The notes beneath the pieces are model-generated. The model was not told the DNA's origin. It made no database searches and saw only the letters and a list, made by a program, of their open reading frames with translations. From Natrialba aegyptia DSM 13077 (GTDB lineage: Archaea; Halobacteriota; Halobacteria; Halobacteriales; Natrialbaceae), in NCBI RefSeq assembly GCF_000337535.1, contig NZ_AOIP01000011.1, forward strand, positions 1 to 35,822: 35,822 nt of DNA. Reading direction: 5' to 3'. A program made the translations under genes and the position numbers. The stretch's first letter is position 1. Every line of letters starts with the position of its first letter. Positions 11,283-31,161 of this stretch are shown one piece after another.

Positions 11283-11297
11283 CCGCCACTACCTACT

Positions 11298-11936
11298 ATG
11301 AGTGACAGCGTTTCCGACCTGATCGACCGACTCCACGAGGAAGCCACACAGAGCCGTCCCGCGGCCGAGACGCCGGACGTTGGCATCGTGATGGGCAGCG
11401 ATTCCGATCTCGAAACGATGCTGACCGGCGGCGAGCGCCGCGGAGCCTACGACGCGTTCGTTGATGAACTCGGCTTTGCCGAGCAGACCGACTACGAAAA
11501 CGCCCCCGACGAGCGGTTTACGTTCGAAACGTACGTCACCTCGGCCCATCGGACGCCGGACCTGATGGCGGCCTACGCCGAGACGGCAGAAGAGCGCGGG
11601 CTGGAAGTCATCATCGCGGGCGCGGGCGGCAAATCGGCTGATCTACCGAATATGACCGCCTCGATCGCGTATCCGCTGCCGGTCATCGGCGTCCCCGTCC
11701 AGGAGAAGTCCGTCGATAGCGTGATCGGAATGCCGACCGGCGCGCCGCTGGTCGCCGTCGACGCCGGCAAGTCCTTCAATGCCGCCCTCTCTGCCGCACA
11801 GATCCTCGCTCGCCAGTACGACGACGTGCGCGACCGACTCGTCACCTACCACGACGGCCTGCGCGACGGCGTCGGCACCGTTTCGCGCGAACTCCACGAC
11901 GAGGGAACCCCTGCGTTCCGAGAGCGCGAACGGTAA
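11298..11936 (+). CDS. purE: N5-carboxyaminoimidazole ribonucleotide mutase
   Basis: A 212-residue class I PurE that rearranges N5-CAIR to CAIR. The signature GIVMGSDSDLETM is at residues 29-41, the catalytic-site TSAHRTPDL near 82-90, AGAGGKSADLPNMTASI near 110 and GVPVQEKSVDSVIGMPTGAPLV thereafter. It is about 50 residues longer than a typical PurE. The extra length is an N-terminal 27-residue leader and a charged insertion (GGERRGAYDAFVDELGFAEQ and following) between the first strand and the active-site histidine segment, as seen in haloarchaeal PurE from memory. It is the last gene of purK-purE; the nuo operon starts 241 bp downstream on the same strand, with its own promoter. Confidence 0.95.
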   Translation: MSDSVSDLIDRLHEEATQSRPAAETPDVGIVMGSDSDLETMLTGGERRGAYDAFVDELGFAEQTDYENAPDERFTFETYVTSAHRTPDLMAAYAETAEERGLEVIIAGAGGKSADLPNMTASIAYPLPVIGVPVQEKSVDSVIGMPTGAPLVAVDAGKSFNAALSAAQILARQYDDVRDRLVTYHDGLRDGVGTVSRELHDEGTPAFRERER

Positions 11937-12177: not shown

Positions 12178-12591
12178 ATGAACGATTGGATAGCGATCGG
12201 GGCGCTCGCGCTCGTTGGAGTCCTGATACCCCTCAGTATGATGGCGGTATCGGCGCTGCTACGTCCGAGTGTGCCCGAAACGAGCAAACGTGCCACCTAC
12301 GAGAGTGGTGAGGTTCCGACCGGCGGCACGCGCGTCCGGTTTAACATCCAGTACTACATGGTTGCGCTTCTGTTCCTCGTCTTCGATATCGAAACCGTCC
12401 TCCTGTTTCCCTGGGCGGTCGTGTACCTGGATGCCATCGAATCGGATGCCGTGTCACTGCTCGATATCCTCGGCCCGATGGTGCTTTTCGTCGCAATCCT
12501 GCTCGCGGGACTTGCATGGGCGTGGCGAAACGGTGCCGTCCAGTGGGCACAGACACCTCGTCAGGTAGACACGGAGCGGAATCGACCATGA
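12178..12591 (+). CDS. nuoA: NADH dehydrogenase-like complex, subunit A
   Basis: A 137-residue membrane subunit of the complex I-like quinone oxidoreductase (Nuo/Fpo family). Three helices are visible: residues 3-25, 62-85 and 95-115. The conserved loop YESGEVPTGGTRVRFNIQYYMVALLFLVFDIETV matches NuoA, including the FDIE quinone-site segment. ATG 12178 gives MNDWIAIGAL, a standard start; an extension to 12103 is unsupported because a TATA box lies inside it. It is the first gene of the operon. Its stop TGA overlaps the start of a nine-codon mini-frame that itself overlaps nuoB. Confidence 0.94.
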   Translation: MNDWIAIGALALVGVLIPLSMMAVSALLRPSVPETSKRATYESGEVPTGGTRVRFNIQYYMVALLFLVFDIETVLLFPWAVVYLDAIESDAVSLLDILGPMVLFVAILLAGLAWAWRNGAVQWAQTPRQVDTERNRP

Positions 12592-25572: not shown

Positions 25573-25887
25573 TTATCCGCCGTTTCCGTTGCCGGCTCGT
25601 GATGCCACCATTACGACTGCGACCAGTGCCATCAGGATACACCCGATCGTCACAGCCCCGTAAACCGCACCCGTTATCGGTGACACGACGACCGTTGCTC
25701 CGTTCACGGTTACCGACTCGAGTTCAGCGTGCCGGGGAAGCAGAAAGCCCAGAACGGCCCCGAAGACAGCAGTGACGAGGACGATCGTTCCGACCGTAGC
25801 GAGAACGAGCGTGCGTCCGGTGACGGTTCTCCCTGTCGCCGCGATCGGCTCGCCAGCGGGCGTCGTCTCGCTTCGGTCGTCGGTCAT
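25573..25887 (-). CDS. Small membrane protein, possible cox-cluster accessory (DUF7520-like?)
   Basis: A 104-residue protein with an acidic/polar N-terminus (about 20 residues) and two helices, at residues 28-50 (LVLATVGTIVLVTAVFGAVLGFLL) and 70-97 (ITGAVYGAVTIGCILMALVAVVMVA). Between them is a short extracytoplasmic loop, ESVTVNGATVVVSP. It has no catalytic motif. Its neighbours are a DUF6684-like and a DUF7541-like membrane protein, which in other haloarchaea accompany terminal oxidase genes; the DUF7520 label is a guess from that setting. The ATG at 25887 shares an AT-rich upstream region (25905-25925) with the divergent 28-codon frame. Confidence 0.65.
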   Translation of the reverse strand: MTDDRSETTPAGEPIAATGRTVTGRTLVLATVGTIVLVTAVFGAVLGFLLPRHAELESVTVNGATVVVSPITGAVYGAVTIGCILMALVAVVMVASRAGNGNGG

Positions 25888-25907: not shown

Positions 25908-25923
25908 CGGATACAAACTTTTG
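25908..25923. promoter_or_regulatory. Shared AT-rich promoter region between two divergent small membrane genes
   Basis: The stretch around ATACAAACTTTTG is the only AT-rich segment between the minus-strand start at 25887 and the plus-strand GTG at 25948. It sits 25-38 bp from each, so it could hold TATA elements for both directions. Confidence 0.45.
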
Positions 25924-25947
25924 TTCGTGTCCGGTGTTCGTACGGCT

Positions 25948-26034
25948 GTGACCGAGAAGGAACTCTTCGCACTCTTGCTCGTTGGGATCGCACTCTTGAT
26001 GGGAACGGCGGGATTCATCTTGATCATCAATTGA
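25948..26034 (+). CDS. Possible 28-residue single-helix membrane peptide
   Basis: Starting at GTG 25948, the frame encodes a short charged head (M/V-TEKE), then about 22 hydrophobic residues LFALLLVGIALLMGTAGFIL and an IIN end before TGA. The composition is exactly that of a lone transmembrane helix, an AT-rich promoter-like region lies about 27 bp upstream, and the codons favour G/C at third positions. In size and shape it recalls the tiny single-helix subunits of ba3-type oxidases, and its neighbours are oxidase-accessory-like proteins, but no sequence identity can be claimed. No other gene occupies this strand. It would escape most gene callers. Confidence 0.45.
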   Translation: MTEKELFALLLVGIALLMGTAGFILIIN

Positions 26035-26242: not shown

Positions 26243-26485
26243 TTACGGTGTTTCTCCGCGCGTGTGGTCGTCACTCTCGATTACGCGTGCGGCAATGGCC
26301 GTAACGACCGCGAGTGAAACGGCTATCGAGATCAAAATCGCGAACTGAATCGTCGACTGCAGCGGGGAGAATCCCCACGGATTGAACACGGCGAACAAGC
26401 CGGTGAAGAACACGATAATCACGAACGGGATGAAGTTGACCGCGAGGTCCAATGCGAGTTCAGTGTCGAATGCACGGCGGCTCAT
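26243..26485 (-). CDS. Small membrane protein, DUF6684-like
   Basis: An 80-residue protein with two helices: residues 16-34 (VNFIPFVIIVFFTGLFAVF) and 47-69 (FAILISIAVSLAVVTAIAARVI), separated by NPWGFSPLQS. The pattern LDLAVNFIPFxI..F..LFxVxNPWG matches the haloarchaeal DUF6684 family as I remember it, which sits near cytochrome oxidase and haem genes ('cox cluster proteins'). No catalytic residues are seen; an assembly or accessory role is only inferred from context. The ATG at 26485 is preceded on its own strand by a CA-rich tract, and further upstream by three 8-bp repeats. Confidence 0.75.
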   Translation of the reverse strand: MSRRAFDTELALDLAVNFIPFVIIVFFTGLFAVFNPWGFSPLQSTIQFAILISIAVSLAVVTAIAARVIESDDHTRGETP

Positions 26486-26653: not shown

Positions 26654-27085
26654 TCACCCGCGTTGATCACCTCGTTCGCTTCCGCGTTCGCGTTCGCGGT
26701 TCCGGCGCGAGCGAACGCGGAGGGCGACTGCGCCGACAGCGGTGATGACACCGGCGGCGGCGATTGCGATTCCACGTCTCGCGAGGCCGGTCAGTTCGTC
26801 GGCAGGAGCGACCGAGAGCGTTCCGGTCCCGAGTGCGTACAGGAGCCCGCCGAAGACGACGAAGGCGATGCCGAATCCGATTGCGAGTGACCACGGCCGA
26901 GCGACGCGGGCGGACTCCGTGAGGAAGCCGGTGACGCTCGCGGCGAACAGGACGAGGCCGGCCACGGCAACCGGGAGCAGGGCGACGACGATCCCGACCT
27001 CCGAGAAGACGAGTCCGAGAGCGACGAGCAGCGGCCAGGGACTCGTGGTCGTCGATCCGGTACCGTGTGCAGAGTGGTCGCCCAT
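26654..27085 (-). CDS. Membrane protein, DUF7541-like (cox cluster)
   Basis: A 143-residue protein with four helices: about residues 16-36 (PWPLLVALGLVFSEVGIVVAL), 38-57, 65-88 (WSLAIGFGIAFVVFGGLLYAL) and 103-122. The SPWPLLVALGLVFSEVGIVVALLPVAVAGL start and the SARVARPWSLAIGFG centre fit the DUF7541 family, a group found beside haloarchaeal cytochrome oxidases. The C-terminus is a strongly basic/acidic tail (RSRRNRERERGSERGDQRG). ATG 27085 was preferred because a promoter-like GTAGATACTAC lies about 30 bp upstream; an in-frame extension would run through it. It is 168 bp upstream of the DUF6684-like gene on the same strand. No oxidase subunit is within the window. Confidence 0.72.
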   Translation of the reverse strand: MGDHSAHGTGSTTTSPWPLLVALGLVFSEVGIVVALLPVAVAGLVLFAASVTGFLTESARVARPWSLAIGFGIAFVVFGGLLYALGTGTLSVAPADELTGLARRGIAIAAAGVITAVGAVALRVRSRRNRERERGSERGDQRG

Positions 27086-30900: not shown

Positions 30901-31161
30901 TTAACTGTTGTACGGCTCTTCGTCCCGGTGGTTGTCCGGATTCGTGTTGTCGAGTGCGTCCGCCTCGCGCTCGTCGGATTTGTGCTCGATATCCTGTCGG
31001 CGCTGTTCTTCGTCCGCCCGCTCTCTGGCTTCCTTCTCCTCCTCGGTGAGCTCGTCGTCGTCCTCCTCGTCGGTTTCTTCGTGGGTTAGTTCGACGTCCC
31101 GTCCGTGTTCGTCTTTCCCGGTCCTGTCGGTCTGGCCGGTTTCGCTTGGGTCGTCAACCAT
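30901..31161 (-). CDS. Highly acidic small hypothetical protein
   Basis: An 86-residue soluble protein; about 40% of residues are Asp or Glu. The centre (about residues 28-62, DEEDDDELTEEEKEARERADEE and onward) is a charged helix, probably a short coiled coil or a flexible segment. There is no cysteine, motif or membrane segment, and I recognise no family beyond haloarchaeal acidic proteins. Start ATG 31161. It lies 80 bp downstream of endonuclease III on the same strand and might be co-transcribed, but spacing allows a separate promoter. Confidence 0.65.
   Translation of the reverse strand: MVDDPSETGQTDRTGKDEHGRDVELTHEETDEEDDDELTEEEKEARERADEEQRRQDIEHKSDEREADALDNTNPDNHRDEEPYNS

Follow-up and report, generated by a model that had tools for sequence, protein, structure and literature searches.

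A 35,822-nucleotide stretch of contig NZ_AOIP01000011.1 from Natrialba aegyptia DSM 13077 (hereafter the window) contains, on its forward strand, a 28-codon frame with a GTG start and a TGA stop, whose product is MTEKELFALLLVGIALLMGTAGFILIIN. It lies exactly where an earlier note on this DNA had claimed a GTG-started 28-residue peptide, and the accompanying claim that it encodes little besides a transmembrane helix agrees with a best 19-residue Kyte–Doolittle mean of 2.71 and with the lack of charge at positions 6–27 in 106 of 108 copies. A divergent gene for a DUF7520 protein lies upstream of this 28-mer, a convergent gene for a DUF6684 protein downstream, and beyond it follow a gene for a DUF7541 protein and, as a further downstream neighbor, a polyprenyl synthetase gene (Table 1).

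Table 1 Features of the window, and diverged second copies of the 28-mer in relatives.
Feature	Position	Strand	Basis
DUF7520 protein, divergent, upstream of the 28-mer	25573..25887	-	Pfam PF24364, E 5e-6, 26.8 bits, just below the cut-off of 27
TATA-like box ACTTTTG, TTT at -28 to -26 from the GTG	25917..25923	+	Aligned upstream regions; putative promoter
Single-helix 28-residue protein (predicted)	25948..26034	+	Frame, conservation, length, selection, helix-face conservation
DUF6684 protein, convergent, downstream	26243..26485	-	Pfam PF20389, E 1e-29; two helices predicted
DUF7541 protein, cox-cluster accessory gene	26654..27085	-	Pfam PF24396, E 5e-35; four helices predicted
Diverged second copy	L293:10103-10189		
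Diverged second copy	L294:9852-9938		
Diverged second copy	L296:9033-9119		
Diverged second copy	L295 near 11291-11374		
Diverged second copy	L297 near 12505-12585		

Such hydrophobicity is rare in the window: only one of its 231 mechanical frames of 20–60 residues, counted from the first start codon, has a mean above 2.5. That set leaves out the 28-mer, whose mechanical frame begins further upstream and is 101 residues long. The sole other short, strongly hydrophobic frame counted (30928–31089, forward strand, 53 residues) is antisense to a called gene at 30901–31161 and is probably spurious. Since the frame of the 28-mer is open upstream as well, with an in-frame GTG at 25927, the assigned start is a prediction from box spacing and family length. 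Searches with the peptide returned no Pfam family at E up to 1 and no NCBIfam model over its cut-off (best LPXTG_anchor, 13.9 bits against 15.9), and the 28-mer profile matched none of 177,635 distinct PDB sequences at E up to 10. No description of the 28-mer was found in those parts of the literature that were accessible to the search; earlier experimental detection is possible, for example in the Haloferax small-proteome study cited in PMC12482152.

The earlier note had also pointed to an AT-rich, promoter-like region at the right distance from the start, and this element recurs in relatives. Among 83 aligned copies that start with ATG or GTG, T occupies positions -28, -27 and -26 in 67, 76 and 70 copies (1.1–1.5 bits); the remaining columns between -50 and -1 exceed 0.5 bits only at -35, -29 and -1, and the aligned upstream regions hold no column resembling a Shine–Dalgarno sequence or other ribosome-binding site. 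The position of the box is conserved, and its spacing is that expected of an archaeal TATA box with a leaderless transcript. The box is predicted to act as a leaderless promoter, and the transcription start is likewise a prediction.

As a single 28-residue query, the peptide gave E values of 2e-11 to 8e-5 in eight genomes (the window's own, two congeners and genomes of five other genera of the family). A 16-row profile was then searched at E up to 0.1 against 391 Halobacteriales genomes, drawn with a completeness floor of 95% and not independent of one another; it matches 295 of them, in 74 of 88 genera. In a separate draw of 295 genomes across the phylum, 47 have a match at E up to 0.01, one of which is outside the order; this match (G509) falls within a 437-residue frame and was treated as chance. 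Among the matches in the 391 genomes, one (G117) is a 17-residue partial at a contig end, adjoining COX1. For comparison at the locus level, 174 loci were scanned, 144 of which have a match, and removal of 36 identical copies left 108 non-identical loci. From model position 1 to the stop these copies measure 27–31 residues, with exactly 28 in 71; ATG or GTG stands at model position 1 in 83, and the other 25 have an in-frame ATG or GTG upstream, giving an extended N-terminus.

Selection was examined in 47 non-overlapping pairs with 70–96% nucleotide identity. In these pairs dN/dS is 0.217 and the pooled pN/pS is 0.272 (bootstrap 0.220–0.327), with 180, 76 and 333 substitutions at codon positions 1, 2 and 3. 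The random-placement null and the shifted-frame controls cover 46 pairs from a 106-locus set lacking the window's copy and that of one congener, and values are nearly unchanged between the 106- and 108-locus sets. Placed at random, the same substitutions give a mean pN/pS of 0.795 and a lowest value of 0.646, and shifted and reverse frames give 0.97, 3.0 and 0.93, without comparable constraint. The 28-mer is conserved and is under purifying selection at the protein level. Two of the checks that the earlier note proposed, a search of relatives and a Ka/Ks test, favor the peptide: the frame is kept in three-quarters of the genomes (295 of 391), and synteny is largely conserved in the 55 loci that were read. 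A chance open frame, or conservation of a non-coding kind, might be suspected of a frame that is very short, starts with GTG and is open upstream, and was rejected as having a negligible probability in view of the E values in relatives, the spread over 74 genera and the low pN/pS, a bias not seen in the other frames tested.

The 55 relatives' loci were picked because they contain the 28-mer, and their usual order, with variations, is DUF7520 (reverse), peptide (forward), cox1 (reverse), DUF6684 (reverse), DUF7541 (reverse). Within 5 kb of the 28-mer, DUF7520 occurs in 50 of the 55, DUF6684 in 50, DUF7541 in 49 and COX1 in 37. The neighbors that the earlier note had likened to oxidase accessory factors are families that flank cox1 outside the window's family. 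DUF7520 is usually divergent from the 28-mer. The cox1 gene is convergent with it in 33 loci and lies directly ahead of it on the same strand in four (L093, L097, L113 and L114; gaps of 117–248 bases), so that the link outlasts local rearrangement. By contrast with these arrangements, 15 of 17 loci from the window's own family have no COX1 within 5 kb; because the accessory genes of this family lie mostly apart from coxA, the 28-mer need not be co-produced with COX1. In two loci (L084 and L095) the 28-mer and DUF7520 stand together with no cox1 within 5 kb. Structural models of the DUF7541 and DUF6684 proteins have four helices (pLDDT 82.8) and two helices (pLDDT 77.1), respectively, and Foldseek searches of both against the PDB returned nothing at E up to 0.001. 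The DUF6684 sequence profile had no PDB match at E up to 1; that of DUF7541 matched best (E 0.0012) a chain called IR104M4, which looks unrelated, and it also matched, at E 0.059, a chain of cytochrome c oxidase polypeptide 4, which is a hint only.

The COX1 adjoining the 28-mer carries the motif GHPEVY and scores best with the CtaD/CoxA model TIGR02891 (646 bits, short of the curated cut-off, 670.75), and in a midpoint-rooted tree, read without regard to supports, the 28-mer-adjacent copies group together. From these sequences, the linked oxidase is classified as A-type (CtaD/CoxA-like, aa3-like) and not ba3. Six COX1 matches occur in the window's genome, none of them beside the 28-mer. The one nearest to the adjacent lineage is a COX1–DUF6789 fusion encoded with COX2 and COX3 on another contig (C33, locus L046), which falls in the sister group of the 28-mer-adjacent COX1 in the midpoint-rooted tree. 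This gene, with DUF6789 at its C-terminus, occupies L046:6570–8861, and a manganese catalase gene lies in the same stretch as COX2 and COX3. In a third arrangement, with separate DUF6789 genes, a diverged 28-mer of its own stands between COX1 and COX3. In coxA clusters whose DUF6789-like genes are separate, DUF6684 is also adjoined by a second small, hydrophobic, probably single-helix protein of 41–48 residues sharing YTP-x-G (L153:1132–1278, L155:1159–1284, L156:454–579, L158:8626–8751 and L052:5550–5675); the one copy tested, from L052, has no NCBIfam match. Other COX1 types, including a GHPEVY-bearing type of 828 residues, are present in genomes that have no 28-mer, so the peptide is tied to one lineage and not to A-type oxidases at large.

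This assignment bears on the earlier suggestion that the peptide belongs to a ba3-type oxidase, whose small subunit CbaD (IIa) is, like the 28-mer, a small single-helix protein encoded in haloarchaeal oxidase clusters and often unannotated. According to the accessible sections of PMC3128077, very small oxidase subunits often escape annotation and are hard to detect as protein; subunit IIa occurs in B-type oxidases, including haloarchaeal ones, has a conserved Trp and a PX1-3GT/A motif, measures 53–78 residues in archaea and has its gene immediately ahead of that for subunit II. The 28-mer shows none of these features. In 106 loci, Trp occurs only at position 6 of two copies (L008 and L055) and P-x(1-3)-G-T/A in none, and neither feature was seen by eye in the copies of the window and L003; the length of 53–78 residues is likewise missing from the loci examined. 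The neighbors are DUF7520 and DUF6684 in the window, and mostly DUF7520 together with cox1 or DUF6684 in the 55 loci. Identity with CbaD is contradicted by the missing residues and by the A-type COX1, and we consider it very improbable; the ba3-type partner proposed earlier gives way to a CtaD/CoxA-like one.

Whether each of the 391 genomes has the coxA lineage was called with one 28-mer-adjacent COX1 as query, from the best E value per genome; these values separate cleanly, every one being either no higher than 1.8e-150 or no lower than 4.1e-121. In a first pass, 288 genomes had both the lineage and the peptide, 4 coxA only, 7 the peptide only and 92 neither (Fisher p ~2e-75, uncorrected for phylogeny). 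This table was counted by hand, with the 99 coxA-lacking genomes recounted and 76 of the 96 peptide-negatives inferred from totals. Inspection then covered the exceptions and 22 genomes with weak or multiple matches. All four coxA-only genomes (G008, G115, G143 and G396) proved to have a diverged 28-mer adjoining coxA (L052, L153, L154 and L155). Among the seven peptide-only genomes, four have partial matches inside frames of more than 500 residues, and in two (G088 and G399) the COX1 of the DUF6789-fused coxA lineage is in pieces, which are 82–98% identical to that lineage and 34–50% to the other types compared. The pieces lie at L164:2337–4618 and L165:2497–4917, and both genomes retain the 28-mer. 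The seventh, G007, is the one true exception, with the 28-mer, DUF6684 and DUF7541 but without the coxA lineage. The corrected table has 294 genomes with both, none with coxA only, 1 with the peptide only and 96 with neither. Concordant genomes received less scrutiny than the exceptions, which tilts the corrected table towards agreement; of the two, the first-pass counts are less biased.

The 28-mer and the coxA lineage occur together. Both states exist within eleven genera (g1, g3, g5, g6, g8, g9, g14, g43, g52, g63 and g68), and the two genes agree in each; in the window's genus, G000, G002 and G005 have both and G001, G003, G004 and G006 neither. Of 80 genomes without the coxA lineage, one has DUF6684, again G007. 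Among named COX1 loci of mixed types (L173–L190 and L237, which are the 19 haloarchaeal loci out of 80, the other 61 not being haloarchaeal, and include some contigs that duplicate genomes already used), the stretches of DNA available showed the 28-mer in 12 and none in 7. Halobacterium sp. TGN-42-S1 is among the organisms that carry it beside coxA. No 28-mer was called alongside three extra coxA copies that lie elsewhere in their genomes (L290–L292). An accessory subunit would be expected to occur only with its oxidase lineage, as the peptide does in the 391 genomes with G007 as the one exception, and to be linked to the catalytic gene, as it is in the 37 loci with COX1 within 5 kb and not in the window's genome. 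Some kind of link between the 28-mer and the coxA-lineage oxidase is, in our estimate, highly probable. Since the peptide occurs almost exactly where this lineage does, it is probably a small component of the oxidase, or a helper in its assembly, that has been overlooked. What stands of the earlier proposal of an unannotated oxidase subunit or assembly peptide is a conserved, oxidase-linked peptide without a Pfam or NCBIfam model; the ba3 type does not stand, and the core genes in this genome lie on another contig.

The helix itself offers some indication of its role. Conservation along it is periodic, with a maximum at 100 degrees per residue (p 0.007 for this preset angle, 0.025 over 90–110), and L7, L11, A15, M18, G22 and L25 form the conserved face; this periodicity suggests packing against a protein. 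Of the 25 copies with an N-terminal extension, 19 have R, RR or RRG as the last residues ahead of the helix, and the other 6 have an acidic residue there. By the positive-inside rule, a basic flank marks the cytoplasmic side, so the basic endings suggest that the N-terminus is inside. We propose that a leaderless mRNA would be translated into a 28-residue membrane protein, which would insert as one transmembrane helix with its N-terminus in the cytoplasm. The conserved face would then pack onto a partner, the likeliest being subunit I or a neighboring subunit of the A-type (aa3-like) coxA lineage, and the putative binding would stabilize the oxygen reductase, with the 28-mer serving as a small accessory subunit. 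We assign a probability of about 0.6 to this main reading, that the 28-mer is a single-helix accessory subunit of one haloarchaeal A-type oxidase lineage.

Small single-helix subunits of this kind have precedents. Subunit IV of proteobacterial aa3 oxidases, a single helix of about 50 residues, is also an accessory subunit of an A-type oxidase; it is longer than the 28-mer, whose profile matched no PDB chain. CcoM, a 36-residue subunit of the cbb3 oxidase (PMC10433244, as far as its text was accessible), likewise belongs to a heme-copper oxidase, but to a C-type enzyme of a bacterium, and the PDB search with the 28-mer profile returned no chain at E up to 10. CydH/CydY (YnhF) of cytochrome bd-I is described in the accessible part of PMC8951039 as a single helix of ~3 kDa, formerly an orphan gene away from the oxidase operons, that co-occurs with one oxidase subfamily. 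The same part of that source describes CydX/CydS/AppX of cytochrome bd as a ~4-kDa single-helix subunit crucial for assembly, stability and activity. Both resemble the 28-mer as small single-helix proteins, whereas bd oxidases belong to a different superfamily from the heme-copper enzymes; the likeness is one of kind and does not imply homology. The simplest reading would be a small accessory subunit of the same sort as CydX, CydH and CcoM.

The main rival is an assembly role, in which the 28-mer, DUF7520, DUF6684 and DUF7541 would form a membrane module that matures COX1, by copper or heme insertion or by the joining of subunits, and is absent from the finished enzyme. It ranks as the main rival because diverged second copies of the 28-mer adjoin DUF7541 or DUF7520 without COX1. 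Second copies were sought in 16 genomes, and 7 have one in a short frame; the rest are matches in frames of more than 200 residues, or the case of G165, a partial match in a 48-residue frame with no related neighbor. In five 20-kb stretches around diverged second copies, DUF7541 is near in four, DUF7520 in two (L295 and L297, together with the copy) and a protein of 503–517 residues in three, and COX1 is absent among the frames of all five; the surroundings in G129 and G099 were covered over 8–8.5 kb. L293, the only stretch annotated by Pfam, encodes a heavy-metal ATPase, a cation efflux protein, DUF7350/Fe2+-transport-like proteins and a multicopper oxidase. A protein of 455–517 residues recurs near DUF7541, in cox clusters and by second copies of the 28-mer (L029:9478–10848, L293:11427–12938, L294:11174–12727 and L296:1398–2948), and neither the L029 nor the L293 copy has a match in Pfam or NCBIfam. 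These settings, with the metal-transport genes of L293, speak more for a module of assembly or metal delivery than for a plain subunit, and it is consistent with such a role that within the window's family the module is mostly separated from the core genes and that it accompanies more than one coxA lineage. Against this, the 28-mer is directly behind cox1 on the same strand in four loci, and in Pfam and NCBIfam the window's 28-mer, DUF7520, DUF6684 and DUF7541 matched none of the known assembly families. On balance we judge an assembly factor rather unlikely, and the choice of a subunit over such a factor is itself a matter of judgment.

The 28-mer could instead work together with DUF7520 or a metal-handling module, for example as a metal or redox sensor, and be linked to the oxidase only indirectly. 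DUF7520 does accompany it in 50 of the 55 loci and stays with it in L084, L095, L295 and L297, but across the 391 genomes it tracks the coxA lineage almost perfectly, which argues against such a partnership, as does the lack of a soluble domain or an obvious metal ligand in its 28 residues; we regard this reading as improbable.

Taken further, and with a good deal less confidence than the main reading, the 28-mer, DUF7520, DUF6684 and DUF7541 may constitute an undescribed haloarchaeal module that is obligatory for one aa3-type lineage. The 28-mer would then be among the smallest subunits of any heme-copper oxidase, or it would belong to an archaeal machinery for metal insertion, reused also without COX1 in metal-acquisition islands. 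The accessory-subunit reading makes the 28-mer a specific candidate component of a haloarchaeal oxidase, one without a Pfam or NCBIfam model over cut-off. It is present in 294 of the 391 sampled genomes and, one exception aside, only alongside one oxidase lineage, including in the 11 mixed genera. Families of unknown function are tied to the same oxidase, DUF6684 by co-occurrence and DUF7520 and DUF7541 by neighborhood.
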